This document shows positions 25,027-64,000 of a stretch of DNA of 64,000 bases, piece by piece (within the stretch, counting starts at the first letter, position 1; each line of letters opens with the position of its first letter). Both the position numbers and the translations under genes were made by a program. The notes below the pieces were generated by a model. It was not told the origin of the DNA. It saw only the letters and a list, made by a program, of their open reading frames with translations, and made no database searches. Origin of the DNA: Rosa chinensis (taxonomy: Eukaryota > Streptophyta > Magnoliopsida > Rosales > Rosaceae); NCBI RefSeq assembly GCF_002994745.2, contig NC_037092.1, forward strand, positions 85,356,824-85,420,823. The letters run 5' to 3'.

Positions 25027-25029
25027 ATC

Positions 25030-38450: not shown

Positions 38451-39497
38451 CGAGTCAGCGGCTCCGGAAACTTTTTCTAGCTTTGCCCTCACAGGAAAAG
38501 CTGAGCTCAAGGGAAGTGTGAGAGCCACCATCGTGACCGCCACCTCCATCAGAAGTAGTCTTCATGTTGCCAAAGATGTCCTCACCATGCACGGGAAACA
38601 GTGAAAGGGTTTCAATCTCCTGGTGATCTTCTCCTCTTTGTTCCATGAAAGTTTGTTCTACATTCATGTCAAAGAAAGTAGAACTAGTTCCCCCTCCAGC
38701 TGAGATTGAACAATCCCTAGGACCCTTCTCCATGTTCATGGATCCATAACCGCTATAGTTCCCTATCTGCCCGTTAAAAGCACTCATCACACCAGCGGAA
38801 GAAGTAGAAGCAGGTGCAGAAGATCCAAAGTTAATATACTGATCCTCATGTTTCCAATTGGTAACATTGTCATCACCAACAAGCCCTGATCTTTGCATGG
38901 GCACATGAACATCCGAAGTGGACCTCTTCTTCTGCTTCTCCTGAGCCCTTTGGTTCACGAACCAATAATAGACGTTCTTGAACTCGATCTTACCGTACTA
39001 TTTCAGCTGGAGACAGATCCTCTGAATCTGCTCTATAGTTGGGGACCTAAATCCCTTATTGTAGAAAAGCTCCTTGAGGATCCTTATATGATCTGTAGTG
39101 GGAATCCACAGAGTACTGCTCTACCTGCGAAGCATGTTATCACTACTCCTGGCTACTTTGTTACTTCCTCCATCCTTGGTTGGATGCCGGCTTTGTGGTT
39201 CCATTGGTGATGGATTGAGAGAATGCGAGAATTGAAGAGTGATGATGATGAGTAATTAAGAAAGATTGATGTTAGAAATATTCGAGTTGATGAATGATTT
39301 TGGGATTGGAAATTCGGGTTTATAATGTGGAGGAAGATATAGGCATGCAAATATCCACCCTTGGATGGACGGTCAAAAAGAAGAGTCAAAGTAAGTGTCA
39401 GTACCACGTGATTAAAGTTGCTCTAAATCTAGGAAAAGAATGGATTATTGGCGCGTGGGGAAAACTGAACGGTTTTCGAGGAGGTAACTATTTGACA
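38451..39497 (-). repeat. Athila 3' LTR (partial) carrying a WUS-like insert
   Basis: The minus strand begins TGTCAAATAGTTACCTCCTCG (39497) after the Athila 3' non-coding region and its AAGTGTGGGGGAATTAGGG purine tract. U3-like sequence continues to about 39310 with CACGTG (39405-39410), CCATCCAAGGGTGG and a TATAAACCC (about 39316-39324). The WUS-like coding sequence follows. The LTR end (R/U5) is missing here: the copy stops at the Tat-A junction. Confidence 0.6.
38455..39204 (-). pseudogene. WUS: WUSCHEL-like homeobox gene, intronless copy inside an LTR
   Basis: One continuous frame of 249 codons (ATG 39204, TGA 38455-38457) with only two internal stops: TAG at codon 28 (39121-39123) and TAG at codon 69 (38998-39000). 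Domains: a homeodomain at about residues 30-93, with helix 1 [16 protein letters not shown] and helix 3 KNVYYWFVNQRA; a WUS box TLSLFPVH at residues 199-206; and an EAR-like LELSF at 232-236. This trio is specific to WUSCHEL among WOX transcription factors, which maintain stem cells in the shoot meristem. No intron is present, whereas WUS genes normally have introns around the homeobox, so it looks like a retrocopy. The homeodomain has diverged (FVNQRA where WUS has FQNHKA), while the C-terminal half stays close. The terminal 14 residues after LELSF are unlike WUS and may be fusion sequence. Confidence 0.85.
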
Positions 39498-39942
39498 AAT
39501 TTGTATTTCCCTAATTCCCCCACACTTAAATTAGACATTGTCCTCAATGTATGGCAATATAACTCACAATGCACAAGAAAAGCATAGAGAAGGAAAATCC
39601 AAAAGGCAAATAGAAAGAATAAGAAAGATTATAGAAAAGCTCCCCCTTGAAGACCTCCCAATGCTCACGACCTATGGAGAAGACCAAAGTTAGACACCAA
39701 CTTCAAGGCACAAGGCCTTGACTTCCAAAACGTAAGCTCTGTGTAATATGGACTCCAAAAGAAGTGATGATGGGGGAAAAAGGAGGAGAAGGAAGGAAAT
39801 TTCCTTGCCTTTCTTAATGTTTGCACCTGCATATTCACAAAACACATTAAAGCGAACTAATAAAATAAAAAAATGAAAAAGTTGGGTTGCCTCCCAATGA
39901 GCGCTTGTTTTAACGTCTTTTCAGCCTGACGTGTACCGCCAA
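39498..39942 (-). other. Athila 3' non-coding region with polypurine tract
   Basis: Just after the pol stop, the minus strand has the conserved Athila/Tat-type GACGTTAAAACAAGCGC...GGGAGGCAACCC block (39890-39925). It ends with AATTTAAGTGTGGGGGAATT (39512-39531), the probable polypurine tract before the 3' LTR. Confidence 0.7.
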
Positions 39943-42900
39943 TTAAGCTTCAGAAGGTGGTGCATCTTGGAGGGGTACTTCCTCCACCTTTTTGCCCACC
40001 AATGCTTCACAATAGGGTTTGAGCCGATGTCCATTCACTTTGAACTCATTCTTTGTTACTTCACTCTTTATTTGAACTGCACCATGGGGAAAAACATGAG
40101 TAACAACAAAAGGTCCAACCCATCTAGATCGTAACTTACCTGGGAAGAGTTTGAGGCGAGAGTGGAACAACAAAACTTTCTGACCAACCACAAAGGATTT
40201 CCCACGAATTATCTTATCGTGGAAAGCCTTCGTCTTTTCTTTGTAAATGTGTGCACTCTCATAAGCATCATTCCGTATCTCCTCCAACTCATTAATTTGC
40301 AACTTTCTATGCAAACCAGCTTCATCTAGGTCCATGTTGAAGGCTTTAACCGCCCACCACGCCCTATGCTCTAATTCCACGGGTAGATGGCATGCTTTCC
40401 CATACACCAACCTAAAGGGTGACATCCCTATAGGCGTCTTATATGCTGTCCTACATGCCCATAATGCATCATCAATTCGTTGGCTCCAATCCTTCCTAGA
40501 TGGTCCAACAGTTTTCTCCAAAATCTGCTTGATTTGTCTGTTGGACACTTCAGCTTGCCCACTTGTCTGAGGGTGATAAGGTGTGGAAACCTTGTGAGTA
40601 ACATTATACTTCTTGAGCAAAGCTTCAATTGACTTATTGCAGAAGTGAGATCCTCCATCACTTATGATCGCTCTCGGCATTCCAAACCTAGCAAAGATGT
40701 TAGACCTAAGAAATTCTGCAACAACTCGAGAATCATTAGTCCGGGTGGCTTTTGCTTCCACCCATTTTGAGACATAATCCACAGCAAGCAAGATATAAAG
40801 GAAACCATTAGAACATGGGAAGGGCCCCATAAAATCAATGCCCCAAACATCAAAAATTTCAACAATGAGTATTCCAGTTAAAGGCATTTGATTCCTAGGT
40901 CCTAGATTTCCGGTTCTTTGGCATCTATCACAATTCATACAAAAAGCATAAGCATCCTTAAACAAAGAAGGCCAATAAAAACCAGATTCTAACACTTTAG
41001 CAGCAGTCTTTTTCGAACCAAAATGTCCTCCACAATGTTCAGAATGGCAAAACGCTAATATGTCATTAAACTCAGATTCATTCACACAACGTCTTATTAA
41101 CCCATCAGAACAATGTTTCCACAAGTAAGGATCATCCCACACATATTGCTTAGCACTACTTTTGAGTTTTTCTTGATGAGCACAAGTTAAAGTGTTTGGG
41201 ATTTGCCTAGTTACTAGATAATTCACAATATAAGCATACCAAGGCATACTTACCTCAATTCCGAAGAGTTGTTCATCCGGAAATTTCTCCTCTAAGGGTA
41301 GGACATCCTCCTCATGCACAAGCCTACTCAGGTGGTCAGCAACCACGTTTTCACTCCCTTTCTTGTCCTTGATTTCGATATCAAACTCTTGAAGCAAGAG
41401 AATCCATCTAATCAACCTAGGTTTCGCCTCTTTCTTTGACAACAAATACTTCAAAGCAGCATGGTCAGTGTAAACAATAATTTTAGTTTGAAGTAAGTAT
41501 GAACGAAACTTATCTAGGGCAAAGACCACGGCAAGGAGTTCTTTCTCAGTTGTTGAGTAGTTGAGTTGGGCGTCGTTCAATGTCCTTGAGGCATAGTATA
41601 TGGCATGAGGCTTCTTTTCCTTCCTTTGTCCAAGAACAACTCCAAATGCGTAGTCTGATGCATCACACATGATTTCAAAAGGAAGAATCCAATCTGGGGG
41701 CATCATGATGGGTGCAGATGTCAAGGCTGCTTTCAATGTGTCAAAGGCTTTTTGACACTCCTTTGTCCACTTGAACACCACATCCTTTTACAAAAGTGTG
41801 CACAAGGGCCTTGAGATCTTTGAGAAATCCTTGATAAAACGCTTGTAGAACCCTGCATGTCCTAGAAAAGAACGAACCTCTCTCACAGAAGTAGGAGAGG
41901 GTAAGCAGCGCACAAGATCCACTTTTGCTTTATCAACCTCTATTCCCCTAGCAGACACAATGTGACCTAACACTATACCTTGTGTCACCATGAAGTGACA
42001 CTTTTCCCAATTCAAAACAAGGTTGGTCTCAATGCATCGTTTCAAAATCAAATCCAAGTTATGCAAGCAATCATCAAAGCTCATTCCAAAAACACTAAAA
42101 TCATCCATGAAAACTTCAGTGATTTTTTCAATATAATCAGAGAAAATAGCAAGCATGCAACGTTGGAAAGTACCAGGGGCATTACAAAGACCAAAGGGCA
42201 TTCTACGATATGCAAATGTGCCAAAAGGACAAGTAAAAGTTGTTTTCTCTTGATCTTCATGAGCAATTGCAATTTGATTATAACTAGAATATCCATCAAG
42301 AAAACAATAGAATGAATGACCAGCTAACCTCTCAAGCATTTGGTCGATGAATGGCAAAGGGAAGTGATCTTTCCTTGTGGTGGTGTTGAGCTTCCTATAA
42401 TCAATGCAGACTCTGTGGCCAGTTACGGTTCTTTGGGGCACAAGCTCATTTTGTTCATTTTTCACAACCGTTACTCCACTCTTCTTAGGCACCACTTGGA
42501 CCGGTGACACCCATTTGGAGTCTGAGATAGGATATATGATGCCATAGTCGAGAAGTTTGATGACCTCCTTCTTCACCACTTCCTTCATTGGGGGATTAAT
42601 ACGACGTTGAGCCTCTCTACTTGGCTTAGCTCCCTCCTTAAGAAGTATCCTATGAACACAAGCAGCTGGACTAATTCCCTTGATGTCAGCCAATGTCCAA
42701 CCAATAGCAGTCTTATGCTCTTTCAAAACATCCACAAGTCTCTTCTCTTGCTCCTTTGACAACGTAGAGGACACAATCACAGGCAAGGTCTCGTCATCTC
42801 CCAAATAAACGTATTTCAGGTGATCTGGAAGTGACTTAAGCTCAAGTACATGGGCTTGAATCACAGAAGGCAAGGGTTTATTAGTAGATAACTGAATGGA

Positions 42901-44270
42901 CTCAAAGTTAGAATACCTTAAGTGTGGCATAGCTTCAAGAGAGGCCACAGTTTCCAAGACATTGTCCCCAAATGATGTTTCAAGATCCTTTGGTGCAACT
43001 TTCTTTAGTTCACCACCTTTTCCATCCCAATTCCTGCTCCATCCTACTCCTTGTTCAACAGTGATTTGCAACACATCTTCATTCAATGCATCAAGGAATT
43101 TCTGCGCAAGTGAATCTAACACATCAATAGAAAAACATGAATAAGAAGCATCCAAAGGGTACCTCATGGCTTCAAAGATGTTGAAGCCTATAACATCACC
43201 ATCAAATTCCATTGTTAATGATCCGGCGTAGACATCAATCTTGGTTCTAGCAGTTCTCATAAATGGACGTCCAAGCAATAATGGAGTGCAATTTAAAGAA
43301 GGTTCATCCATGTCAAGCACATAAAAGTCAGCAGGGAATATAAGATGATTTACTTGAACAAGAACATCCTCTACTAAACCTTTAGGGTATGCTTTAGACC
43401 TATCCGCTAATTGAATGATAACATTATCAGTTTTTAGCTTTCCTAGATCTAAAGATGCATAAACAGAATAAGGCATGACATTTATTGATGCACCTAAATT
43501 TAGCATAGCATTCTCAAACCTGTTGTTACCAATTACGCATGGAATGGTAAAGCTTCCGGGGTCCTTGCACTTTGGAGGGAGCTTTCTTTGGATCACAGCT
43601 GAGACATTCTCACTTACCTTCACTACCCCTTTTTCACGCAGCCTCTTTCTTGTAGTACATAGCTCTTTCAAGAACTTAGCATACTTTGGAACTTGCTTGA
43701 TGGCCTCAAGAAGAGGTATATTCACTTGGACCTTCTTGAATGTCTCCAAGATAGCTTTCTCACTTTTATCCTTTTTAGAGTGAGCAAATCTATTTGGGAA
43801 AGGCATAGGAGTAGAGTAGTTAGCAACAATTGAATTTGACAAGTTAGAATCATTACCTTTTTGTTTCAGTTGTTGCTCAGAGTTAGGTGATGCCTTCAAC
43901 TCCTTCTTGGACGTTGCAGGGTCCTTTTCTTCTTCTTCAACATCCATATGGACATCCTTTTGGGCTTTTGGGGCATCCCTGAGGGTCTTGCCACTTCTGG
44001 TGGTGATAGCTTTGGCAGTTTCGAATCCTCCCTTTGGATTTGGAACTGTTTGACTTGGGAGCTTTCCTTGCTCATGGAATTTGTTCATGGCACCTATCAT
44101 TTGACCCATCTGCTTCTTTAACTCCTCAACATCCTTGCTCATGGTGTTCATCTGGATCGAAGTATTTTGTTGAGTCTGCAATAAGGATTGAGTAGAAGTA
44201 GTCAAAGTTTTAATAATCTCATCATAATTAGCAGCATTATTAGAACTTTGAGAATTATTAAAAGGAGTAG
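39943..44270 (-). pseudogene. Athila pol (protease, RT, RNase H, integrase) with one stop
   Basis: The minus-strand frame continues directly from gag once Tat-B is removed. Motifs in order: ITTRSGKTL (about 44005, Athila hallmark); protease LNLGASINVMP (about 43480) with Asn where the catalytic Asp belongs; LLGRPFMRT (about 43265); RT WVSPVQVVPKKSG (about 42500), MPFGLCNAPGTFQ (about 42185) and FMDDFSVFG (about 42100); RNase [20 protein letters not shown] (about 41575); integrase H2C2 (about 41050-40910), GIDFMGPFP (about 40840), SDGGSHF (about 40655) and [12 protein letters not shown] (about 40555). The only premature stop is TAA at 41788-41790, between RPLCTLL and KDVVFKWT, where Gln is usual. 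The reading frame ends at 39943. Very well preserved compared with Tat-A. Confidence 0.92.
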
Positions 44271-44786
44271 TGTACATACATGTACATTTGCAAACATAAT
44301 TAGCTATAATGGGCTACGCTCATTGTACCGCCAAAGGTACTAATTCCAACTAAAGGAATGACATGCAGACACACCGCCAGGCAGGCTACAGCCTCAGCGT
44401 CGGACCACCTCCAGATCACCGCCGACACGCTGCCACGCGCCACGCCAAGATGGCATCAGAAGCTTCTGAAACTGGGAACTGAAGCATATCAGTCCCACAT
44501 CGAAAACAAAGAGAAGATCAACCTCTTCCTCACCTATAAAAGGTTCTCTCCTCTCTCCTCATTAAAGACGCATTCAATACTTATCTACTGTTACTTTGTC
44601 AACACAAATACATTGACTAACTTAGGCATCGGAGAGCAGAAGACCGCCCGGCGCGGTCTCCCTCTGACGCCCATTGTATTTCACTTGACAGGTAACGGGA
44701 GCTTCGAGAACAACACAAGTACCGATCCGCCCACCGGATCAGCTTTATCTAGGGTCCAGCTACCGCTGGACTCTTAAACGTTAACA
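44271..44786 (+). repeat. 5' LTR of Tat-B
   Basis: TGTACATACATGTAC...AAACGTTAACA, with TATA box CCTATAAAAGG at 44533-44543. Confidence 0.95.
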
Positions 44787-44806
44787 TTGGCGCCGTCTGT
44801 GGGAAG
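44787..44806 (+). other. Primer-binding site of Tat-B
   Basis: TTGGCGCCGTCTGTGGGAAG immediately follows the 5' LTR. It is identical to the PBS of the coding-free element at 22462-22481. Confidence 0.88.
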
Positions 44807-44839
44807 GAGACAACAAAAGACCATCCCATCACAATCACC

Positions 44840-46030
44840 ATGACTAGCGGCAGTGGGGGAAACGACGGAGAGCAGGCAGACAACCCCGCCGCCCCCCAAA
44901 CATCCGACCCAGCGGTAGGCGTTAACCGCGCACTATTCACAACCCCTGCCAACCCCGGCGGTGAGGTAAATCCAGGCGGTAGCCGCCCGCCGGGCCAAGA
45001 TCTCGTCACTATGTACGAGCTGGCACTGACGGATCTTCACAAGGCAAACAGAGAACGTGAGGAGGAGCGCAGGGAAAAGGCTGAAGCCCAAAGGCAGGTG
45101 GCTATACTAATGACACATTTTGAGGAACTAAAGAAGACGCTGGCGGCCACCGCCCGCCCAGCACAGAGCGAGCAGTCACGTAGCACCAGGCGTAGTCGAC
45201 CCAACACCGGCACATTGGTACCAGGGCCGGTCGTACAGATGCAGGTACCGCTGAACCCACCTGAGTTGTTGGGAATGGGACCACCGCCCATACCTCAGCT
45301 AATGTTAGAGCAAGTGGCGGAATCACTCCCGCACACCAACCACTCAGAAACCAGGGCGAGGACAGAAGGTAATCCGCCTGTGCCGAGGTGCAGGCCAGCC
45401 CAGCGGATCATTCAGACCGATTCCGCCGACGATGCAACCGCCCAGCTATTGGAAAGGATGCACCAACTGGAGCAGAGATTGATCCGGGCGGAGTCGGGCG
45501 TCCCAGCGCCAACTCGGAATCCGCTCTTCACTTCCAGACCTGGGCCCTTCTCCGCTGGAATTCTGCAGGCTGTCAGACCAGCATATGCAAAAACCCCAAA
45601 GATGTCGCATTACGGCGGAATGTCCGATCCCTTCGTCCATATGGATACCTTCAAGAAGGTCACCAACAACAAGGGGTTCGACGACGCCACCTTATACCAC
45701 TTGTTCAGCGAAACATTGGATGGCGAGGCAATGAACTGGTTCTTTGAGTGTCCGCCGGGTTCTGTCGGCTCATTCCATGCTTTATCACACGCTTTCCTCT
45801 CCCGATTCATCCTATTGTCCGCCGGGCACCACAATACAAGTCAGCTGTTCAGCGTTAAGCAGGGGGAGGACGAATCACTGAAGGCCTTCGTCACAAGGTG
45901 GCGAGCGGCAGCGTCTCAGTGCCGTGACCTAGACAAGACAATGGCATCAGCGGCTTCAGGAAGGGACTTCTCAAGGGACCGTTCCTCTATCACCTCAACT
46001 ACAGTCATCCCAATGCGACGTATGACCACG
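44840..46030 (+). pseudogene. Tat-B gag, frameshifted
   Basis: ATG at 44840 (MTSGSGGNDGEQADN). A Glu/Arg-rich coiled coil lies at about residues 55-95, a Pro-rich linker follows, and the Gag core is at about 45590-45930 (FVHMDTFKKVTNN, AMNWFFECPPGSVGSF). A one-base loss near 45955 moves the frame. The downstream sequence matching Gag (KGPFLYHLNYSHPN) is read in the frame that continues at 46033. Confidence 0.87.
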
Positions 46031-46032
46031 TC

Positions 46033-49000
46033 ATGAGTGAGGCGGTCATTCACGCCCAGGCGGAATTCATCATATATGGAGAAACCCCACCGCCACCAGC
46101 AACTCCAGCAAAATTCACACGACCATCCCCCAGTCACCAGGAAACCGCTAACAAGACCCCGTCAGCACCGCCAACTGACAAGAAAAGGGAGTGGCAGCAG
46201 GGCCACCACCAGAACAAGCGGCAGAAGGACCAGCATTACAACAGGGGAAACCGCCCAACCCATGGAGATAACCGCAACAAGCAGGCGGAGTCCTCGCAGC
46301 GGTATGCAGTTTTCACGGTCTTAACGGCCTCGTATGAAGATATCTGTAATCAGTGCAAGGATCAGATTCCACCGCCACCCCCTCCAAAGTACCCAAAAAA
46401 GGGTAAACCCAGGAACACCAGCAAGTGGTGCAAATACCACGAGGACAGCGGCCATAATACCAATGGCTACAATGCTCTCAAAACGGCCGTTGAGACCTTG
46501 TACCGTGACGGCAAGATGGAACAGCTCAGGGTGCGCCAACCACCACCAGTAATTGCCAACGTCGAGACCTTGGGCCGCATCAACACCATCGATGGCGGTG
46601 CTCCAATCACCAACATGTCTCACAGGGCAAGAAAGCGCTATGAACGCGCTAATCATCCGAAGGAAGTCTGCAACATCCGCTACGAAAGATCCGCCAAACT
46701 CCCAAGATCAGGTTGGGAACCTATTACCTTCTCAGAGGAGGAGGAACGCGGAGTGCATTTACCCCATGATGACCCATTCTTGGTCGATGCCATTCTTGGC
46801 AAATTCTCGGTGGGGAGAATCTTAGTGGATAGCGGATCCGCTGTCAACGTTATCTTCAGCGGTTGCTACGACCATCTCAAGCGAAACAAAAAACTACTCC
46901 AGGATCACGAGCCACTGCTCAGCTTTTCCGGTGACGTCACACAACCGCTAGGGTCGGATTACATGCGCCTGGTTATTGGCACTAGTCCGTGCATGGCGGA
47001 GGTGCATACGGAGTTCATTATTGTCGACTGCTTCAGTTCATACAACGCCATCATTGGTCGACCAGCGCTTAACAAGCTCAAGTGCATCATTGCCGGGTAC
47101 ATGCTTCTCATGAAGTTCCCCACACCTAACGGCACAGGCTGTGTGAGGGGAAGCTAGCAGCTGGCACGAGAATGTTATTCAACGACTATAGCGCTGTCAA
47201 CGCGCCGCCATGAAATTCTGACGGTGGGTAATGAGGCATCGCCACCAAACATCTTTGAGGATCCTAGAGATGAGGAGGAGAAATATATAAAGAAGGAGCC
47301 GGTCAACCCGGGCACGTCGTTAAAAGTTGTCTGCATCTCAGACGAACACCCTGAGCGGACAGTCCGCATAGGCGCCCAGCTAGATCCAGAGGTGGAGGCA
47401 GAACTCACTCAATTCCTACGTGACAACGCCGCTGTCTTTGCATGGTCCTACGCGGACATGCCAGGTATCTCCCCTGAAATTATCACTCATAAGCTGACCA
47501 TCAAACCCTCCTTTTACCCTATCAAGCAGAAGCGGAGGGCCTTTGATGAGGAAAAATACCGGGCAATCGGAGAGGAGGTCGCCAAACTTCGGGACATTGG
47601 GTTCATCTGCCAAGTCATATATCCCCAGTGGATCTCAAATTTGGTAATGGTAAAAAAGTCCAGCGGCAAGTGGCGGATGTGCGTCGACTTCAAAAATCTC
47701 AACAAGGCATGCCCAAAGGATAGTTTCCCGCTACCTCGTATCGATCAGTTAGTCGATTCAACTGCCGGACACGAGCTCCTCAACATGATGGACGCTTTCT
47801 CCGGATACAATCAGATCAGGATGCACCCCAGCGACCAGGAATGCACCACCTTCACCACCGACAAAGGCCTCTACTGCTACAATGTCATGCCTTTCGGTCT
47901 GAAGAACGCCGGTGCAACTTACCAGCGGTTGATGAACGCCATGTTCGCTGAGCATCTGGGCAAAATCATCGAGGTCTACGTGGACGACATGCTAGTTAAG
48001 AGCATAAAGGCCAGTGGACATGTGGCAAACCTCAGGATCATAGTAACCATCCTCCTGGCCTATAATATGTGCCTCAACCCAGAAAAATGTTTCTTTGCAG
48101 TCACCGCTAGCAAATTTCTCGGTTACATCGTCAGCGAGCGAGGTATCGAGGCTAACCTGGATAAGGTACAGGCCATCCTTAACCTGGCGAACCCCGAGTA
48201 TAAGGTGGACGTCCAGTGCCTCCAGGGCAAGTTAACCGCCCTTTCTCGATTCATCTCTCGACTCACTGATAAGTGTGCCCCATTCTTCAAACTCCTCAAA
48301 ACAACTCACAAGAAGGTCATTGACTGGAACCCAGAGTGTCAGGCGGCGTTCTAGGGCCTAAAGGAATACCTGGCGGCAGTCCCTCTCCTTTCTGTCCCTG
48401 TGCAAGGAGAAACACTATTCATTTATCTAGCGGTCTCGGCAATGGCGATAAGTTGCGCCATTGTCCGGCGGGAAGGCCAGGATGAGCTCCCAGTGTTCTA
48501 CGCCGGCAGAGGCATGAACGGAGCAGAAACAAGATATTCACCGTTGGAGCAACTGGCCCTCGCACTTATCGTTGCCGCCAGACGCCTCCGGCAATACTTC
48601 CAGGCTCACACGATCCATGTGTTAACCAATCAACCGCTGAGGCAAGTGATGCAGAACCCTGAACACTCGGGGCGCCTCAGTAAGTGGGCCATTGAGCTCA
48701 GCGAATTCGACATAGAGTACAAGCCAAGAACCGCCATGAAGGGCCAGGCAGTGACGGACTTCATCGCTGAACTTACTGAGCGTCAGCCGGAACCCGGCAC
48801 TCAAACAGAGCTCGGAACAGAAATAGTAAACGGTGAAGAGGCAACTCCCCTACAGTCAGATTGGAACCTGCATGTGGACGGCTCCGCCTGCGCCAAGGCC
48901 AGCGGCGCCGGAGTCATCTTAACAGGACCCGGGGGACTGAACGCGGAGTACGCGTTGAAATTCAACTTCAAAGCTTCAAACAATATGGCGGAGTACGAGG

Positions 49001-50562
49001 CGCTTATCGCCGGTCTACTCCTCGCCATTGACTCAGGAGCTGACAGCGTCAACATATTCAGCGACTCGCAACTAGTCGTTAACCAGGTCAATGACAGCTT
49101 CCAAGCCAAGGACCAGCAGTTAGCGGCATATTTGGGGTACGTCAAAACGTTGCTAAAAAAGTTCAAATTTCACACCATCACACAAATCCCCAGGGAAAAG
49201 AACGCCAAGGCTGATTCACTGGCGAGACTGGCAACCGCCCAACCACATCAGAGTCCAACGGACACAAGGGTGGAGTACCTTGACAAGCCAAGTATCACAA
49301 AGACCCTGGCGGAGATTTTCAACATTCAAGTCAATCCCAGCTGGATGGACGAGATCATTGCATATAAGCGCAGCGGCACATTGCCAGAAGATAAGGTCCA
49401 CGCAAGACAGCTCAAGCGCAGAGCAACCCGCTACAACATCCAGGATGGCAAGCTTTACCGCCAGGGATTCACCCATCCCAACCTCCGCTGTCTAACCCTA
49501 GAGGAGGGAAAGGTCATCCTAGCAGAAATCCATGGTGAAGAATGTGGAAACCACTCGGGCGCCAGATCCTTGGCCAACCGCACAACGCGACAAGGCTACT
49601 TCTGGCCCACGCTTGGTGATGACGCTCGGCGGATTTCGAGGTCTTGCCACAAATGCCAACAGTTTGCAGATCTCCCACAGGCACCGGCGGAACCACTGTC
49701 AGTCATCATCGGCCCATGGATTCATTCCACGTGGGGCCTTGATTTGATGGGAAAGTTCCAAACCGCCAAGGGCCAGTTCAAGTACATCATTGTCGCCATC
49801 GATTACAACAGTAAGTGGGTAGAAGCGGAGCCACTGACGGCAATAACTACCGCAAAGGTAATTCGCTTCCTTTGGAAGAATATCTACTGCCGCTATGGTG
49901 TCCCACATACAATCATTACAGACAACGGCACACAGTTTAACAATAAGGAACTCATCTCATTTGCCGCCAACCTGGGCACCAAGTTAAGTTTTGCATCTGT
50001 CGCCCATCCCCTAACCAACGGCCAGGTCAAAGCACCAAACAAGATAATCAAGAAGCTGCTAAAAAAGAAGCTCGACGACGCCAAGGGTTTGTGGGCGGAA
50101 AAACTTCCAGAAGTCCTATGGGCCATCGTGACAACTCCAACTACCGCCACCGGCGAAACTCCTTTTTGTATGATGTTCGGCACAGAGGCTGTCCTTCTTG
50201 TTGAGGTAACTCAGCCTACCGCTAGGGTCGACGGCTACTGCCCAGAGACCAACAGCGACGGCATCAACTTGGACAGGGACCTCCTAGAAGAGAAAAGACA
50301 CAACGCCCATTTACACAATTTACAAAACAAACAACGGGTATCGCGTTTCTATAACGCCAGAGTCAAGGCCCGGAACCTCCAACTGGGGGACTCGGTCATG
50401 AAGGAAGTCATTCCGCCACCAACAAAACTCCGCCCAACTTGGGAAGGCCGGTACAAAATTGTGGAAGTCGTTAGCCCAGGCACCTTCTACTTAATGGACA
50501 AAGACGGCGTCACATCGACCCACCCTTGGAATACTGAACACCTTCGGTATTACTACAAATAG
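46033..50562 (+). pseudogene. Tat-B gag C-terminus and pol (protease, RT, two RNase H, integrase)
   Basis: Single frame with TAG at 47155-47157 and TAG at 48352-48354 (the second where Gln is usual). Features in order: a zinc-knuckle-like CKYHEDSGHNTNGY (about 46430), its final Cys replaced by Gly; protease LVDSGSAVNVI (about 46822); RT WISNLVMVKKSSGKWRMCVD (about 47632-47691), MPFGLKNAGATYQ (about 47890) and YVDDMLVKS (about 47980); RNase H (about 48400-48780); second RNase H WNLHVDGSA...NNMAEYEAL...FSDSQLVV (48860-49230); integrase H2C2 (49530-49670), GLDLMGKF (about 49738), TDNGTQF (about 49920) and NGQVKAPNK (about 50020), where Lys replaces the catalytic Glu. It would copy and integrate the element, but this copy cannot. 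Confidence 0.92.
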
Positions 50563-50976
50563 TCAGACCGCTACCCAGGAGCATCTTGACTTAGCTAAAT
50601 TTTTGTTCAATATTTAGCTAAGGGAAGCTACCCAACGGGTACTACCCCACTTTTGTACACTGATCAGTCAGCTATCAATGAAACGAGGAATTATTCAAAC
50701 CATTGTTACCAAGTCTAGCACTGAGGGCAACTGGCAACGCCAGCAATCGTCGGCGGACCTCGTCCGCTACGTGGTGCACTTGGACCAATCTTAATTCCTT
50801 TAATGTTTCATTGATCGACAGAAGAAAAATATAACTCAAAACACTAGCACTGCAAACACATCATGGCAAACCAATTCCGAAATTTATTTCACTTCCCAAC
50901 ATTCTTTACAAACTGTTGTGCCTCAGCGGCTACAAAACAAAAAGAGTAGGAAAATCTCTAGCTATCTCAGCTGGCT
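50563..50976. other. Tat-B spacer between pol and the antisense ORF
   Basis: No coding seen. A TTAGCTAA-type near palindrome lies at 50595-50625 (TTAGCTAAATT...ATATTTAGCTAAG). The two genes converge here. Confidence 0.5.
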
Positions 50977-52474
50977 TTAGGGGTTGCCTTCGACATCTTC
51001 CGCTTCAGCGGTCGGCGGCACGATCGATCGACTCGCTTGGTCGGACCCTCGCGCTGTCGGACTGGGGGTCTCTATGGTACCATCCGCCTGGGTGTGCGCC
51101 TCCAGGAATCCAGCACGTGACACCTCCGACGGGGTGGGGTGGGGAGTCTGCTGGGACCCTTCCGTCGGATGTGCGCCACTTTCTCCGCTGCCCGAGCGGG
51201 CACCTCCAGCTGGGGTAGGCACGAATTCTGTCTCCGGCGGGATACTCTCAGCCGGCGGCGTGTCAGGCTGTGACGCTTTGGCGAAGTCAATGGCGCCCTT
51301 CCGCTTCAGCATGTCTATGTTTGCTCGGGCCCCGGCCTTCGCCGACTCGGTCATCGCCTTCTTAAACTCCGCCGACTGCTTGAACGCCTCAACAGCGGCG
51401 GCCGCAGCGGTACTCCCTTCAGCCATCAGGCGGGTAACCTCACCCCCCAGCCACTTCACTTCAGTCATTCTGTCGGCGGACTCCCGCTGCACAATAATGA
51501 GTTTTTTTATCCTTGGCGGCTATCCTCTCCTGCAGCAGGGCGATCTCCTGCTCCAACTTGGAGACACGTTCATTCCTCTCCAAGTCCCGCTCGATGGCCA
51601 CGTTGAGCTTACCGCGGACGTCCGCATAGTCACAATCCGCCTTGGCCAGCCGCCGCTCTGCTCCCGCCAGCTTCTCTTTCGCCTCTGCCCAACTCCCTCT
51701 GAAGACCTTGGATTTCATCCCTGAGCTCCCCCTCAATCAGGGGCCGCTTCGACGCCGCCACGAACATGTCGTGCAGTCCCGCCGATATTTGACCAAACGC
51801 CGAGCTGAAAGGCCATTGGTCAATTGCCGTGGGGCGCGAGATACCCGCTAGGCCGCCGAACCCTAACCGTTCGCATAGATGGAAGAGGAACTCCCGCTCA
51901 CCATCTGTCATGAACGCAGCATACTGGGCAAACGAGTCCAGCTCACTAACGGCGGGCGCCTCTCCCTCCACCGCAACTGTTTTCGAAGGAGCTTGTCAAG
52001 CCTTCTTCTGTCGGCGGGCCCCGATCACCTCCACCTCCTCTCCCTCTTCCTCGTCAGGAGAATCAACCTGCCGGCGTTTTCTCTCCAGCGCCCTTTGGTT
52101 TCCGGCGGCGGTCCTCGTCACCCTCACTGGCGGCTCCTCCCTTGTCACAATGACACTCTCCGCCTGTTGCACCACCTTCCCCTTTTGAGGACCACGCCTG
52201 TGAGCAGGCATCCGCTCCTTCTGTTGCCCAGCGGCAACGCTTCCCCTCTCCCCGCCTGCACTACCGGCAGACCATCCTCACCAAGATGGGAGTGGTGCGG
52301 CATAGGCAGCACCACGGGAACCTCGGACTGACTCAGCGCCAGTGTCTCAGGGTTCACCAGCGTCTGCTGGGCTGCCAGCCCCTCGGCGTACATGGCCTCC
52401 AGAAAGTTGTCTATCTCAGCGCGGTCCATGGCCTTTTCAAAAGCGTCGCGACTCGATTTATTACCCGGTGGGGT

Positions 52475-52518
<44 letters not shown>

Positions 52519-53621
52519 GGTATGGCGGAGATTTTTCACCAATGGAACGCGTTAACCGCTGGTCGACCAGCAACTCCCAACCGGTCAGAAGTCGAAAATC
52601 CAGCAAGTTGCGGTTCCGCCAGCAACCTCTGATCCTCGCTACGCGACACTCTTCTTTGCGCGTTAGCGTGTACCGCAGTCCCGCTGCACAAAAACGGTAA
52701 TCGTTAGTGAGAATACAAGTGCAAATACGTGAACCCGCCAACTACGTTCAGCGGAAACTGGTTACCAACCTCGAATGGGTTGGAACTCCAACTTAATCCT
52801 AAATGTCGGCCCTTCCTCGTTCGACCTGGCATGATACTCCCAACCCTCTGTGGCGACGCAGAAGGTCCCCCGCCAGTAGGACATTGAGTCCCTTAGATTC
52901 TCAAGTTCACTTGCCCTTTGCAACCTCGGCGCTTCACGTACACCAGCTCGTAGAAGTGAAGCACTTCCGCCACAGTAGGCCCCTCGCACCCGGACAACCG
53001 CCAAAGTGAGTTCATGGCCAACATCAACCGCCACATGTTGGGGCAAATCTGACCAATGGCAAGGCCAAATTCGCACACCAGGATTTGGAGATTTGGCACC
53101 AGCGGGAGTGTCACTCCTTGGCGGAATATCGCCTCATGAACGGCAGCAAATCCCGCTGGGAGAATCGAGGCCTTCTCATCCACTGTCGGCGGGCGCAGCT
53201 TCACCGAGCCCGTCAACCGGAACGTCTGCTTCATTCGGTTAACAGCGGCGGCGTCCATCCGCCCTCCTGCCTCGTCGACGGCGGTGCCATCCGAGAGGAA
53301 CCACGCCGACTCAGCATTCTGCCCCGCTACTTCTTCTTCTCCAGCGGAGCCGCTAGCAGCACTGTTGCTCGCCAAACGCTCATCGCGCCTAGCTTTGGCA
53401 GCAGCGGCCTCACCCGCCATAGAGCTCTCTGGATGCGAACCACGACCCATAGCTACTTCCCAGGGGATGGTCTGTAGCGGCTCAACTTCTAGCGGTTCTG
53501 GCAGTGAGGTTCCTGCATGGGCAGATGGACGCAACGAATCAATAAAAATCCTATCTGCCGTGCTGAACGACACGTCAGACTCGGAATCCTCACTGCTCGA
53601 AATCTCTATGACGTTAGCCAT
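50977..53621 (-). pseudogene. Tat-B antisense ORF (gypsy-type Transposase_28-like)
   Basis: The minus-strand gene starts at ATG 53621 (MANVIEISSSEDSESD). The segment LPLVPNLQILVCEFGLAIGQ to PNMWRLMLAM (about 53105-53015) matches the pattern of the 'putative gypsy-type transposon' family found as an antisense ORF in Tat elements. A frame change occurs near 52900. An intron probably ends at the T-run plus AG at 52478-52517. Later exons encode acidic, Ala-rich and coiled-coil segments (EREFLFHLCERLG about 51890; SKLEQEIALLQERIAAK about 51560) and end at TAG 50977. A stop at 51996 and frame changes near 52190, 51680 and 51490 break it. Function of these ORFs is unknown. Confidence 0.75.
52479..52517 (-). 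other. Homopolymer T39 at a probable splice acceptor (minus strand)
   Basis: On the minus strand a run of about 38-39 T is followed by AG and the open frame AAACCCCACCGGG. This is an oversized polypyrimidine tract in the antisense ORF intron. Read on the plus strand it looks like a poly-A tail, but no retroposed sequence precedes it. Confidence 0.55.
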
Positions 53622-54400
53622 CCCAAACCCTAAAACCCACATCAGTTAGCACAAACATAGATCTAGCCTATTCTTACATCAGTTATAGCCAAGGGCATCA
53701 AGAACAAAACCCAGAAAATGCCAAAATACGAACAAACGCACTCAACCCAGATTCGGCCATCTAAATCCCTAAGCACTAACGCTTTGCCAACCATAATTCA
53801 ACCCCCCCCCCCCCCCCCCCCAAAAAAATCTCATTTTACACCTCAGAACACGCCCAACAAAACCAGCAATCATCCCAGAAAGACAAAAACAACAAGACCC
53901 AGAAAATAGCAGACCCACTGAAAAAAAAAAAAAAAAAAAGGTGGAAATCCAGATACCAACCTCGGTGATGAAGTCTACGACACAGTGGTGCACAGTAATC
54001 TTAGGGGGCTGTGATCGTCGTCTCTCCGGGAACGGTATACCCAAGCTTCGGCAAACTCTTTCTTCGGTCTCGGATAAACAGGGCTTGAAGACGATGACTA
54101 GGTTTTCAAATTTTCACAAAGTGATGAAATCTCCCAAGGTTCCCCCCCCCCCTTTATGTCAGCATCAACGCATCCTAAGCCGTCCGCTCCATAACGACAT
54201 CACATACCAGCCGTACACGTGTCGTAAGTCTCCACTCACTCTCCGGAGTACCCGAGGCGTCACCTCGGTTACGAAACCCACATTTACTATCATTAAAGGC
54301 AAGAAGACTGACAGGCTTAGGAGACAAGCCTACGCACGCTAACCCTCTATGGGTTCGACGCGTGTTAAACACCACGGGGATGACTTCACAATACCGTCCG
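53622..54400. other. Tat-B non-coding region with homopolymers
   Basis: C20 at about 53802-53821, A19-20 at about 53920-53939 and C10 near 54140. This is the promoter side of the antisense ORF. No gene seen. Confidence 0.6.
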
Positions 54401-55172
54401 AAGTCTCCGCTTAGCGAAACCCCGCCAGCGGAACTTCTCACTGGTTATCTTCCAAGTGATGAAGTCTCCGCTGAGCGAAACCCCGCTAGCGGAACCTCTC
54501 ACTGGTTATCTTCCAAGTGATGAAGTCTCCGCTGAGCGAAACCCCGCCAGCGGAACTTCTCACTTGTTTATCTTCCAAGTGATGGAAGTCTCCGCTGAGC
54601 GAAACCCTGCCAGCGGAACTTCTCACTTGTTATCTTCCCAGTGATGAAGTCTCCGGTGAGCGAAACCCCGCCAGCGGAACTTCTCACTGGTTATCTTCCG
54701 AGTGATGAAGTCTCCGCTGAGCGAAACCCCGCCAGCGGAACTTCTCACTTGTTATCTTCCAAGTGATAAAGTCTCCGCTGAGCGAAACCCCGCCAGCGGA
54801 ACCTCTCACTGGTTATCTTCCAAGTGATGGAAGTCTCCGCTGAGCGAAACCCCGCCAGCGGAACTTCTCACTTGTTTATCTTCCAAGTGATGAAGTCTCC
54901 GCTGAGCGAAACCCTGCCAGCGAAACTTCTCACTGGTTATCTTCCGAGTGATGAAGTCTCCGCTGAGCGAAACCCCGCCAGCGGAACTTCTCACTTGTTA
55001 TCTTCCCAGTGATGAAGTCTTCGCTGAGCGAAACCCCGCCAGCGGAACTTCTCTGGTTATCTTCCAAGTGATGAAGTCTCCGCTGAGCGAAACCCCGCCA
55101 GCGGAACTTCTCACTTGTTATCTTCCAGGTGACGAAGTCTCCGCTGAGCGAAACTCTGCCGGCAGAACTTCT
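54401..55172. repeat. 61-bp tandem array, 13 units
   Basis: Units begin AAGTCTCCGCTGAGCGAAAC at 54401, 54462, 54523, 54586, 54647, 54708, 54769, 54831, 54893, 54954, 55015, 55074 and 55135. Period is 59-63 bp with a few substitutions per unit. Each unit contains CGCTGAGCG and CGCCAGCGG short palindromic parts. Last unit incomplete. The array sits between the antisense ORF and the 3' LTR. Confidence 0.95.
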
Positions 55173-55772
55173 CCCTATACCGTCCTGCAAGCTGGGTATC
55201 TTCCGTTATACACCTCTGGCGGAACCCACTTTCATCTTGCAAACTGCGTGCTTTGTTTAAACGCAATATCGTTCAAACAAAATACCGCCAGGCACGTCTG
55301 CCGGACACTGCTTCCTGCTACATTTAGCGGGGGGATATCCGCCAAAACGCGTATCCCGAGGCCACGCCTCTCTGACAACGACCGCCACGCGGCGTTACCG
55401 TCAGACCGTCCCTACGGGACACGGGGACTAGTCAACAGTTTACGACGGCCCTGATCAGGCACGTTGACCCCCGTCATCTGGGTGCTAAACATTGGGCTCG
55501 CTACCCAACACCCTCTGCTCCGTGCAGCTCCCCCTCAACAAACAACTTGCCGACCATCCGGAGGTCTATCTTCGCCGGGGAGTGGGGGACTCCCTGGGGG
55601 GCCCAGCAGGGGCCCACCCGAAAGGGTATAAAGCATTTGCTCAGTAAAACCATCGGTTGACAACGCACTGACGCTAATTATGCTCTTGCAAGTCTAGCGG
55701 AAGAAAACGCTTCAAACCACCGAACAACTCCCCAACCAAGATTGCCCTCCTTGATTGGGGACTTGGGGGACT
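55173..55772 (+). other. Tat-B 3' untranslated region and polypurine tract
   Basis: Non-coding and GC-rich. It ends AACTCCCCAACCAAG...GATTGGGGACTTGGGGGACT directly before TGTACATAC. The same AACTCCCCAACCAAG and GGGGACT words end the coding-free element (minus strand, about 19814-19865). Confidence 0.8.
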
Positions 55773-56281
55773 TGTACATACATGTACATTTGCAAACATA
55801 ATTAGCTATAATGAGCTACGCTCATTGTACCGCCAAAGATACTAATTCCAACTAAAGGAATGACATGCACGCCAGGCAAGCTACAGCCTCAGCGTCGGAC
55901 CACCTCCAGATCACCGCCGACGCGCCGCCACGCGCCACACCAAGATGGCATCAGAAGCTTTTGAAACTGGGAACTGAAGCATATCAGTCCCACATCGAAA
56001 ACAAAGAGAAGATCAACCTCTTCTTCACCTATAAAAGGTTCTCTCCTCTCTCCTCATTAATGACGCATTCAATACTTATCTACTGTTACTTTGTCAACAC
56101 AAATACATTGACTAACTTAGGCATCGGAGAGCAGAAGACCGCCCGGCGCGGTCTCCCTCTGACGCCCATTGTATTTCACTTGACAGGTAACGGGAGCTTC
56201 GAGAACAACACAAGTACCGATCCGCCCACCGGATCAGCGTTAGCTAGGGTCCAGCTACCGCTGGACTCTTAAATGTTAACA
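55773..56281 (+). repeat. 3' LTR of Tat-B
   Basis: Same termini as the 5' copy. Shorter by 7 bp near 55868 and about 2.4% diverged. Confidence 0.95.
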
Positions 56282-57523
56282 AGTAGAGTTAGGAAAAGCC
56301 TGAGGCTTCTGATAAAAGCCTGGTGGTCCACGGTTGAAGTTCTGAGCTTGAGGAGGTCCTTGCACATTGTCATTATTCCTCCACCTAAAGTTAGGATGAT
56401 CCCTAAGTCCAGCATTATAGGTATTGGAGAATGGATCGTATTTTTGTCCTCCTTGGCCTCCTTGAAAACCTATGGCATTGGCTTGCTCCCATTCTTCACC
56501 TCCCATGAGTTGTGGGCATTGATCAGTCGCATGTCCTTGCATGGAGCATACTCCACATGCCATGGCCATTCCTTGTCCCTTTGTTGTCAAGACCTGAGAC
56601 ACAAGTGAAGTAAGCTTATTAATTTTATCTTCAAGATGACTATTAGTACTTACCTCGTTGACTTTTGTACGTGTAGAGCTTAAGCCATCATATTGCTGAG
56701 CTGTGAGGGCTCTATTCTCAAGCAATTCCTTAGCAGCCGCAGGTGACTTGTCGATGAATGATCCACCACTTGCTGCATCAAGCATTTGTCTCTCAAGAGG
56801 CGTGAGACCTTCATAAAAGTATTGGAGCAAGTTCTCGTCCTTCATCCCATGTTGAGGACATTGCACCAAAAGTGCCTTATACCTTTCATAATATGCATGG
56901 AATGATTCATCATGTTCTTGCTGAATACCTGTGATCTTCTTCCTAAGCACTGTCACACGAGAGGCAGGGAAATACTTATCCAAGAATGCCCTAATCAATG
57001 CCTCCCAACTGTTGATGGGTCCAGAAGGCAGCTCATATAACCAATCTTTTGCTCGATCCATAAGTGAGAAAGGGAATGCCTTGAGCTTCAAAATCTGCAA
57101 ATCTGCTTCCTTGGGGCACATGCTCACGCAAACAAACTGAAACTCGGTCAAATGTTTGATAGGATATTCACTAGAGAGACCATGGAACATTGGAAGCCTA
57201 TGGAGAAGACTTGATTTCAATTCAAACTCTGCTTCCTTTCCCTCTGCAGCTGCAGGATAGGTGATGCATGTTGGGATGGTGTTTCCTGCATTGGTGGATG
57301 AGAGTTGCCTTATACTTGCCATTGGTTCTTGCTCTTCTTCCTCAAAACGTTGAGGTGAATTTGGTGGTGGAATTTCTATTTCAACATCTTCAAGTTCCTT
57401 GGTGATGTCTTGGGTTTGCACTTGTGACGTTTGCCCGTGTTCGTTCTTCCTTAATTTCAAGCTCTTCTCTAGCTCGTTATCAAGAGGTATCAAGGCTCCT
57501 TGAGGATTGTTTCGTGTATGCAT
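56282..57523 (-). pseudogene. Athila gag, split by Tat-B
   Basis: The minus-strand frame from ATG 57523 (MHTRNNPQGALIPLDNELE) shows the Athila Gag core (FHGLSSEYPIKHLTEFQFVC, then AFPFSLMDRAKDWLYELPSG) at about 57180-57020 and the zinc knuckle CGVCSMQGHATDQC at about 56560. It is open up to the Tat-B insertion, where AACTCTACT is followed by the LTR. The interrupted frame resumes at 44270 (CTACT duplicated) without loss. Gag and pol were thus one reading frame until Tat-B landed. The true N-terminus may be upstream, as Athila Gag usually begins earlier. Confidence 0.88.
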
Positions 57524-58479
57524 ACAAAGTTCCTTCTATGGGAAGAGCTAAGATGAAGTTAGTAAGAAGTAATGGAATGAAACACAAGTGTAACAAGACG
57601 ATGAATTTCAAGAAAAGCACTAGCTTAAGTTGGATTACACGTTGGTTTAGATGAAGAGAAAAAAAAAATTGAGATTAAGTTTGAATCAAGGTTTGGACAT
57701 GCGGCCCAAGATGTTTCAAATGTTAATAATTGTCGCCCTCAACCCAAAGCATTCGATAACTCTTATTAGGACACGGCCAGGTAGTAGAGGAACGATTTTG
57801 GCGGAGCTCAGCTCACTTGTTTAGCAGGGGACGAGACCCTTTGCTAGCACTTCTCGTATCCAATCAGCCTAGACACCGTATCTTACTAAGATGAATCTAG
57901 CTGAACAATGGGGGTTAAGACAAGAATTAACAAAAGAACCCTTCACCTATTCCGTTATGATTCACACATAAAATCGAACTAGAACTCAAAGTTAATATTT
58001 TACACGTTTTTATAAAAAAATAAATAAAAAATAAAAAATAAAAAAAAATGTTGGTTTTAGAGTCTTTTTGTTTGTTTGAGTCTTAGGATGCTCTTAACGT
58101 CTAGGATGAACATGTCTCTGAATTCATGGTTGAAGGTTTTCACAATTGAAATAGGACTTAATTGAATTCTGTGGTTAATCGATATTGTGATACTTGTATG
58201 AAGATATTGCTTCTGCAGAAAATTGGACTGGTTGTTTGAAGGCCTTCCACTCAAAACTAGCTCTGGCACTCTTCATAAGAAATGATCCTTGGGCTTTCTA
58301 GATTGAATATGGAAAGTTTCAACTCATTTGGAGTTCGGATGGTTAGTCTGCCACCCCTCATTTCTTGTCTAGCTCGCTTTCTCATTGGCTCAATTTCTCC
58401 AAGACACGCTTTGTCAGGCCAAAATGCTTATTTTGGGTCCAAACAGCTCATTTCATCATCATCTACTCCAATGTACCTA
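57524..58479 (-). other. Athila leader containing a Tat-A-family LTR/leader fragment
   Basis: On the minus strand, TGTTTGGACCCAAAAT at about 58476 starts a segment homologous to the first 330 bp of the Tat-A LTR (28533-28890). It jumps near 58205 to sequence like the Tat-A leader (GAATCATAACGGAATAGGTG, about 57960). 57780-57900 matches 38100-38205. An A/T run lies at about 58010-58048. No gene seen. Confidence 0.6.
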
Positions 58480-59954
58480 AAAAAATAGAAATTGAGTTAA
58501 AAATCGATTCGTTAAGGAATTAACTAAGCAAAATGTGAGGAATTAACTATTAAAATATCACATTAAAATGCTCATATCACTATTCTATTCACGAGATTTT
58601 TTTTACGACCGTTGCTTTTCTACGAGTGATTAGTGCCTTAAATCTCGGAAAAGAAGGAATTATTGGCGCTAAGAGTTTTGAGTTGGGAGTCAGCAAGTGG
58701 ATCCAAAAGATACATATTTTCTCAAAACCCTCGCTGCAAGGCTCTTTTTGACGTGGAGCATATTTTAAAAGTTTATATTATTTTCAATATACAACTATGG
58801 GGGCCTATATTTGAGGCCTTGCGAGACACAATTATTGGCTTCTCACGATATTTGGATATCAGGATAAGAAAATATTATTATATTCATAAAGTGGCTTTGC
58901 GGCCAAAAGCAGTACATTCATTACAAAACCAAAAGTGGCTAGAATACAAAACAGGAATGTTCTGATATCCGATCTTAATCTTTTCTCAAGTGGAAGCGGC
59001 AGAGGAAAACAACATAGGCTTGGCTAACGCCATTATCTATGAGAAGGGGAGACTCCAGTGAAAGAAAATGGAGCCTCCAAGCCCCCTCAATTGGAAGTAG
59101 CTATGGAATCCAACGTCGGGTTGAGCCGCGCCATTATCTCCGGGAGGGGCAGAGAGTGAAGGAATCAAATATCAGCTTGAGTCTCTGCACCCCCTCTAGC
59201 CATGGTAACTACCATTAGTTGGACGTGAAGTATAGGAACAGCCATTCTGTAGCTTGAACCCATTCCTTCAAAGAGTCCATCCCTTCTCATCGCTCCAAGA
59301 TTCTATCAAGAAGAGAAAGGGGGAGAAGGAGGTGAGAACCAAAGCCCCTTCCATCTGGAGGGCACAACACGGGCCGGGACCAGAAAGAAGGAAACAGAGG
59401 AGGAAAGACGAACCTCAGAGTGGCCGTCCTCCCTTTCTCCGTTTCACTCTGCGTGTGGGATTCAAACAAAGATGATCTCGCATGATCATGGATCCCACAC
59501 TCGGAGCCCCCTCGCGTTTCTAAACCAATCTGAAGCCTGGCATTGTTGTTGTAAGATTCCAGAAAGGCGAAACAAGGGGTTGCCTAAGATTACGCCATAA
59601 GACCTAACCCAGGCTTAAGATTACGCCATAAAGCCTAAAATTTAGAGGCTAAAGGTCATTTCATGAGGGGAAGATTTGTGAAAAAGGAGAAAAAGAAGCA
59701 AGGACTGAAAGGCCATTTCTTGAATATTTCAAAAAAGTTGTTGTGGGTATTCCCTTCCCAAAATACAACTATTTATAGGGACTTCAGGCAAATCCCCACC
59801 CTTGGATGAAGCTCAATTTCAAAACTGATGTCAGTAAATCGAGATTAGTGATTCCAAATCTCGGGAAAAAAGGGACTAGCAGCATGTGAGGAGCGGTTTT
59901 TGAGGAGTTAGCTATTATTAGAGGATTAATAGCATGTGAGGAGACCGAACGGCT
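58480..59954 (-). repeat. Athila 5' LTR, R/U5 portion and duplicated U3 modules
   Basis: The minus strand from 59954 reads ACCGTTCGG-like U3 sequence, CATCCAAGGGTGG (about 59806) and CCCTATAAATAGTTG (about 59765-59779, TATA box), then a transcribed-looking R/U5 region with two related segments containing AGATAATGGCG (about 59138 and 59037). Near 58670-58580 another U3-like module occurs. Boundaries with the leader are not certain. Confidence 0.55.
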
Positions 59955-60475
59955 ATAGTTCCCCCTCCAGCTGAGATTGAACAATCCCTAGGACCATTCT
60001 CCATGTTCATGGATCCATAACCGCCATAGTTCCCCATCTGCCCGTTAAAAGCAATCATCACACCAGCAGAAGAAGCAGAAGCAGGTGCAGAAGATCCAAA
60101 GTTAATATACTGATCCTCATGTTTCCAATTGGTAACATTGTCATCACCAACAAGCCCTGATCATTGCATGGGCACATGAACATCCGAAGTGGACCTCTTC
60201 TTCTACTTCTCCCGAGCCCTTTGGTTCACGAACCAATAATAGACGTTCTTGAACTCGATCTTGCCTTACCATTTCAGCTGGAGACAAATCCTCTAAATCT
60301 GCTCTATAGTTGGGGACCTAAATCCCTTGTTGTAGAAAAGCTCCTTGAGGATCCTTATATGATCTGTAGTGGGAATCCACCTAGTACTACTCTTCCTGCG
60401 AAGCATGTTAGCACTACTCCCGGCTACTTTGTTACTTCCTCCATCCTTGGTTGGATGCCGGCTTTGTGGTTCCAT
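59955..60475 (-). pseudogene. WUS: Second WUSCHEL-like copy, C-terminally truncated, in Athila 5' LTR
   Basis: ATG at 60473-60475. The homeodomain N-terminal half ([19 protein letters not shown]) is intact in this copy. Stops occur at codon 61 (60293-60295), at a TAA about codon 70, in the basic region after the homeodomain, and once more shortly after. The sequence matches 38690-39490 closely, including about 260 bp upstream of ATG. It ends abruptly at 59955, before the WUS box, where U3-like LTR sequence takes over. The two copies carry stops at different codons, so both decayed independently from a longer open frame. Confidence 0.8.
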
Positions 60476-63962: not shown

Positions 63963-64000
63963 TTTCCTCCTTGGTCCCCAACTGCTAAAATCACCAGGCA

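Follow-up and report, generated by a model that had tools for sequence, protein, structure and literature searches.

Several plant Ty3/gypsy retrotransposons are known to carry an extra gene besides gag-pol. In Retand, Grande and RIRE2 this gene (aORF-3R) lies between pol and the 3′ long terminal repeat (LTR), antisense to gag-pol; an antisense promoter of its own is reported for Grande, and the domains named are TRP28, SMC and a few others (PMC7264820, PMC11963269, in the portions available to us). Ogre elements belong to the Tat clade, have an archaeal-type RNase H (aRH) and carry a plant mobile domain (PMD) as an extra open reading frame (ORF), the PMD being present in 57% of elements (available portion of PMC6317226). 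Orchid Ty3/gypsy elements have acquired a host-like gene for an AlkB-type demethylase and kept it through replication rounds (available portion of PMC9289625). Here we describe a 64,000-nucleotide stretch of Rosa chinensis DNA (hereafter the window; C5:85356824-85420823 of the 515-Mb genome) that contains a Ty3/gypsy element with two copies of a WUSCHEL (WUS)-like gene. Our reading, to which we assign a probability of roughly 0.88, is that rose LTR retrotransposons captured a spliced WUS copy and multiplied it in many copies, the window holding a decayed Tat-clade member.

The rose carrier resembles the aORF-3R elements in the place and orientation of its extra gene, and Ogre in clade, aRH and PMD. 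It differs from the former in the domain carried, and from Ogre in its PMD, which is antisense, lies downstream of pol and has a captured developmental regulator as its partner. Compared with the orchid elements the rose gene is a different one, is antisense and is found on two carriers, and its source gene, missing introns and capture limits can all be seen. The main texts of PMC7264820 and PMC11963269, as available, contain no occurrence of WUS, homeobox or homeodomain, and WOX was absent from the one that was checked for it. Among the titles listed from the open-licence literature, none dealt with retrotransposons that have taken up WUS or another homeobox gene, whether in rose or in plants generally. 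Antisense accessory genes of plant Ty3/gypsy elements are known; a traceable developmental regulator in that role is new.

The rose WOX family poses a puzzle of its own. According to the available text of PMC11405225, R. chinensis has 381 WOX genes, of which 364 are rose-specific and 226 lie on chromosome 2; the counts for R. multiflora and R. rugosa are 170 and 105, respectively. That paper handles the copies as genes, the string 'transpos' is absent from its main text as available, and it calls for more data to explain the expansion.

Results

The carrier 5′ LTR (28533..29703, plus strand, 1171 bp, TGTTTGG..CCAAACA) is preceded by the target duplication AACAC and followed by TTTGGCACGCCGAGTGGGAC, which resembles a primer binding site (PBS) and was not matched to a named tRNA. 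Its 3′ LTR stands just beyond the window, at 65107-66253 of the window plus right flank (L030), is 95.4% identical to the 5′ LTR and is preceded by GGTCTGGGGGGCAA, which resembles a polypurine tract (PPT); AACAC is found on both outer sides of the LTR pair. A decayed gag-pol on the plus strand (30375..37509, limits approximate) encodes reverse transcriptase (RT), RNase H, a second RNase H and an integrase zinc finger, with Pfam matches to RVT_1 (1.1e-24), RT_RNaseH (2.9e-17), RVT_3 (1.7e-7) and Integrase_H2C2 (2.4e-6). The RVT_3 match, at 36126-36377, is a second RNase H that we take to be of the archaeal type. It is the aRH that defines the Tat clade (PMC6317226, in the portion available). 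The carrier RT is 41% identical to that of a nested element described below and 34% to the RT of an Athila-like block. The element carrying WUS belongs to the Tat clade of Ty3/gypsy and is older than the Athila-like block; it is not an Athila. Between pol and the 3′ LTR, WUS and a PMD gene are both antisense to gag-pol. The PMD gene (60866..64000, minus strand) extends past the window, matches PF10536 at 6.1e-22 in 62571-63962, and is 92% identical in the complete copies L016 and L018.

Two minus-strand WUS-like copies, first reported in a first-pass annotation of the window, are indeed present, and both are without introns. Copy B (38455..39204) is full length, with a homeodomain, a WUS box (ETLSLFP) and an EAR-like SLELS, and is interrupted by two TAG stops. 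Copy A with its promoter occupies 59956..60750; its coding part (59956-60475) has four in-frame stops and is truncated, ending abruptly at 59956. An 808-bp repeat that includes the sequence upstream of both copies (38685-39492 versus 59956-60750) is 94.3% identical. Translated through its two stops, copy B matched the solved Arabidopsis WUS homeodomain (PDB 6ry3, E 8.5e-25), the Pfam Homeodomain (E 8.3e-7) and, at 87% across the full length, a rose WOX-family protein; among the best 120 of 164 matches from 390 candidates, its nearest proteins are WUS-like proteins of R. chinensis and R. rugosa. Direct reading of the long ORFs elsewhere in the genome found the WUS box, TLxLFP, and a C-terminal EAR-like SLEL; the end of the L010 ORF is frameshifted.

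The leader and promoter of copy B (39205..39492, minus strand) begin with a 5′ untranslated region (UTR) and TATA box common with the host WUS gene, with homology starting at position 4132 of the host locus L026, and continue into an antisense promoter cassette of the carrier (CCATCCAAGGGTGG). This cassette is repeated at 59785-59916 and 60615-60750 and also precedes region X, a TATA-bearing unit without a long ORF (58663..59955, minus strand). The sequence upstream of WUS, which had been taken for LTR U3, consists of a TATA box shared with the host gene and a carrier cassette. Region X is the usual carrier part between PMD and WUS, and is present in 17 of the 20 loci L009-L028, the three without it being L009, L020 and the host-gene locus. 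We considered it as a second captured gene and rejected this, the longest ORF in the six copies examined being 118 aa and antisense to WUS. L009 and L020, copies in the neighbourhood, each contain a single WUS and lack region X, so that duplication or recombination inside the carrier is the simplest explanation for the two copies of the window.

Complete carriers elsewhere in the genome have the same organization. The insertion formed by L016 and L040 is bounded by the duplication GTTGG and LTRs that are 99.28% identical; its pol is lost and its WUS ORF is intact at 248 aa. That formed by L018 and L041 is bounded by GAATG and LTRs of 95.65% identity, has lost most of gag-pol and has lost the WUS start codon. 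The order in both is LTR, leader, antisense WUS, X, antisense PMD and LTR, and an LTR pair with a 5-bp target duplication was found in all three complete copies checked (window, L016 and L018). At L002, 67 kb from the window, pol, antisense WUS, promoter and antisense PMD-gene sequence occur together without any Athila. Many copies have an antisense ORF in the aORF-3R position between pol and the 3′ LTR, and it is intact in only part of them. The proposal that an LTR retrotransposon captured WUS coding sequence and multiplied it holds, and the underlying event is larger than was first proposed.

The genome counts are lower bounds, with 40 of 607 candidates scored in the search for window-type WUS, 132 of 830 in a further genome search, 150 of 678 in the search for a second WUS branch and 40 of 3627 in the LTR search. 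The 40 listed places of window-type WUS (one of them the host gene) are spread over all seven chromosomes. Twelve of these 40 have one of the 41 listed LTR places within 27 kb, compared with a mean of 0.24 and a maximum of 4 in 1000 random placements. The many copies that the first-pass annotation expected were found. The Athila flanks that it expected were not those of the window type, whose carrier is of the Tat clade; an Athila-type carrier was seen for the second branch, at L039.

In a protein tree of 57 chosen sequences, the 48 from rose fell into a single clade (98/92), although its branch is very short; the host protein RcWUS and eight outgroups lay outside it, as a single origin would give. 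The window type belongs to the first branch (17 sequences, 100/99), and its recognition helix is WFVNQRAREK compared with WFQNHKARER in RcWUS; that of the second branch (24 sequences, 100/96) is WFQNLKARER. The second branch returned at least 165 matches in the genome search. Of the 135 listed that are near full length (matched over about 190 aa or more), 126 are free of internal stops and 9 are not; 91 lie on C2, 16 on C7, 13 on C3, 9 on C1, 1 on C5 and 5 on small contigs, with none on C4 or C6. Those of the 135 that are on C1-C3 and C7 fall within C2 33.8-87.3 Mb, C3 0.5-16.5 Mb, C7 2.8-14.9 Mb and C1 56-68 Mb, a distribution that perhaps reflects parental haplotype blocks or a targeting preference. 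The proteins of this branch (L035, L036, L038, L039; P0040-P0107) have repeated DLNFG motifs, which resemble multiplied EAR repression motifs. This is the type called clade V in PMC11405225, and the clade V protein motifs given in the available text match the second-branch proteins.

The second branch rides an Athila-type carrier at the one locus read fully, L039. This locus contains two units 7029 bp apart and 99.8% identical over a repeated 2.77 kb, with a PPT before a long LTR, an exact PBS word of the tRNA-Asp type beside it, and antisense WUS in the internal region; no gag-pol was found in L039. The LTR start is 75% identical over 398 bp to the start of the Athila-like block of the window. 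The same PBS word occurs in L036, and both L035 and L036 contain related LTR or PBS pieces, rearranged and partly inverted. In L037, pieces of the first carrier surround a 193-aa ORF that resembles P0021 from the window branch. The two WUS copies of L036 (239-3298 and 4897-8001) are arranged as an inverted repeat of 3.1 kb with 98.3% identity, from which hairpin RNA could arise.

Ratios of nonsynonymous to synonymous change (dN/dS) indicate that the intact second-branch ORFs are under constraint, and the first branch is less clear. All six pairs of four second-branch ORFs gave values of 0.32-0.53 (upper bounds 0.48-0.99), and the C-terminal part gave 0.17-0.27 in three of six comparisons. Nine long first-branch ORFs (36 pairs) gave 0.33 to 1.39 with a median of about 0.5; the upper bound was below 1 in 16 of the 36 pairs, and one pair had no nonsynonymous change. 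L011 and L006 in this set are nearly identical, and one exact duplicate (L004) was left out. The homeodomain, WUS box and EAR-like end are kept while the linker is deleted or changed.

A number of points weigh against our reading. The dN/dS values come from a simple counting method applied to long ORFs only, with pairs that are not independent; 19 of the 36 first-branch pairs span a dN/dS of 1, and 6 of the 16 low pairs involve the frameshifted L010. Many first-branch copies are broken, both copies of the window included, and the ranking of the second-branch matches used their likeness to an intact protein, a bias towards intact copies. Words representing WUS sites were not enriched in two of three LTRs; the third, that of L016, has three TTAATSS compared with 0.47 expected, and the WUS promoter has one CACGTG, counted on both strands as two, compared with 0.03 expected. 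The Athila-type second carrier has been read fully at one locus, L039, and L038, also of the second branch, has no match to the carrier library and shares only 242 bp with L039 outside WUS. According to the available text of PMC11405225, 359 of the 364 rose-specific WOX genes are almost unexpressed during rooting.

The broken copies, the near absence of expression in rooting tissue and the first-branch pairs compatible with neutrality are all what would be seen if WUS were a passenger, captured once, of no benefit, and owing its intact frames solely to the youth of many copies; L016 and other recent copies could stay intact without selection. Values of dN/dS below 1 among diverged second-branch ORFs, and the retention of the homeodomain, WUS box and EAR-like end despite linker loss, argue for constraint instead, and we regard a passenger as the less probable case, though a serious one.

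The source of the carried gene is visible. L026 (C2:11.71 Mb) is the host gene RcWUS, with three exons, two introns and a product of 299 aa; its exon 1 shares 89% identity with the WUS of Fragaria and 93% with that of Argentina. Both introns are missing from the carried copies aligned to it. In the least changed copies (L023, L024 and L028) host homology starts at 4055-4060, which is about 100 bp before the putative TATA box, and in most others at 4125-4132; in L021-L024 and L028 it stops at 5573, 20 nt before the stop codon. None of the carried copies compared has the host 3′ UTR. When 21 stretches were compared with the host gene, 681 of its 1006 21-mers had an exact match in one or more of them. 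The missing introns and the limits of homology point to a captured RNA that was spliced, began upstream of the normal start and was joined within the coding sequence. We infer a single capture by template switching from a spliced read-through transcript. A further difficulty for this account is that template switching alone gives no antisense insert, an orientation that would be easily reached if a WUS mRNA had been retrocopied by a long interspersed nuclear element (LINE) and had landed in the carrier by chance. A LINE-type processed retrogene would run from the transcription start through poly(A), whereas the homology here already begins ahead of the TATA box and breaks off within the coding sequence; about one chance in four is what we would give this route.

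Ordinary growth of the WUS family by whole-genome, segmental or tandem duplication, with transposons merely nearby, is very improbable. Some segmental duplication has occurred: L009, the window and L020/L029 have the same sequence on the outer side of the 3′ LTR, and they are duplicates of a local segment, not independent insertions. PMC11405225, in its available text, suggests whole-genome duplication, yet finds zero collinear genes within rose. The carried copies have no introns and a fixed place in LTR-bounded units, with distinct target duplications in the three of three checked; they are not the tandem genomic WUS locus with introns that the first-pass annotation had named as its alternative.

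The block between copies B and A (39493..58579, minus strand) is a later insertion into the carrier. As first annotated, it contains an Athila-like gag-pol on the minus strand flanked by the WUS copies; the placing of these copies in its LTRs fails. The block has TG..CA ends and the target duplication AATAG at 39488-39492 and 58580-58584. In minus-strand orientation the Athila block opens at 58579 with TGATATGAGC, directly after CTCGTGAATAGAATAG, and closes at 39493 with ..TTTGTCA, after which comes AATAGTTACCTC. Upstream of copy A the sequence continues uninterrupted (..GTGAATAGAATAGTTACCTC..) across the Athila insertion point. This 34-base empty-site word could be aligned without gaps and at 1-7 mismatches in 15 of the 19 loci fetched, the best match lying just upstream of WUS in 11 of the 15 and at the sister cassette upstream of region X in the other 4 (L012, L018, L019 and L025); the remaining 4 of the 19 loci have 8-10 mismatches. 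The empty site is preserved beside copy A and, with these mismatches, in relatives, and therefore the Athila block is younger than the WUS unit and was inserted when that unit was already in place. No terminal-repeat match was found between the two ends of the block; its second LTR is missing. That WUS lay inside both Athila LTRs and was doubled by reverse transcription, as first proposed, would fit the flanking position of the copies and their common upstream sequence (94%); it can be dismissed, since the block has its own ends, target duplication and empty site, copy A is followed by region X and 58580-58662 and not by an Athila leader, and complete carriers hold WUS in the internal region, antisense to gag-pol.

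The Athila-like gag-pol is split by a nested plus-strand Ty3/gypsy element (44271..56281) with LTRs of 96.3% identity and the target duplication AGTAG. The window carrier is 37.7 kb long because the Athila-like element, itself split in this way, inserted beside copy B. Parts of the first 370 bp of the Athila block are common with the carrier LTR. In the nested element a search for TRP28 gave only E 0.22, below the cut-off, and tandem repeats of about 62 bp lie at 54400-55176. Elsewhere in the window, a 500-bp direct repeat (19318-19813 versus 22482-22981, 98.2% identical) probably represents the LTRs of a young small element, and an ORF at 24028-25044 weakly resembles a caulimovirus coat domain (2e-5, narrowly missing the curated cut-off).

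Discussion

We propose that the host WUSCHEL transcript, in spliced form, was taken up by a Tat-clade Ty3/gypsy element in an ancestor of the sampled roses. The copy lies antisense between pol and the 3′ LTR, beside the antisense PMD gene, and is preceded by two promoter parts, an antisense cassette belonging to the element and the TATA box of the host gene. Retrotransposition has multiplied this unit, also in the form of copies without pol, and the same WUS lineage is now found on an Athila-type carrier as well. In the window member an Athila-like element, itself split by a nested element, inserted next to copy B.

A WUS-like protein is probably made and would benefit the element; repression of the WUS type in meristem nuclei is its most likely activity. 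A fuller version of this idea is speculative, and we think it rather unlikely as a whole: the antisense WUS-like protein would be a selected accessory repressor that favours transcription or transmission of the element in the meristem and in germline precursors, and the genomic RNA of the element, antisense over WUS, would pair with host WUS mRNA and feed tuning small RNAs.

Retrotransposition would explain most of the published expansion of rose WOX genes, judging from the carriers examined and from the clade V motifs that the two sets have in common, and not from a census. This offers a concrete answer to the published puzzle of WOX number in rose. The source gene, capture limits, carriers and copies are all available, so that the capture of a known regulator by retroelements can be traced. 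The role of antisense accessory genes in plant retrotransposons becomes testable through a protein with well-studied DNA targets and phenotype. If a census agrees, most rose WOX 'genes' would be transposon genes, which would affect annotation, expression studies and work on WUS in rose.

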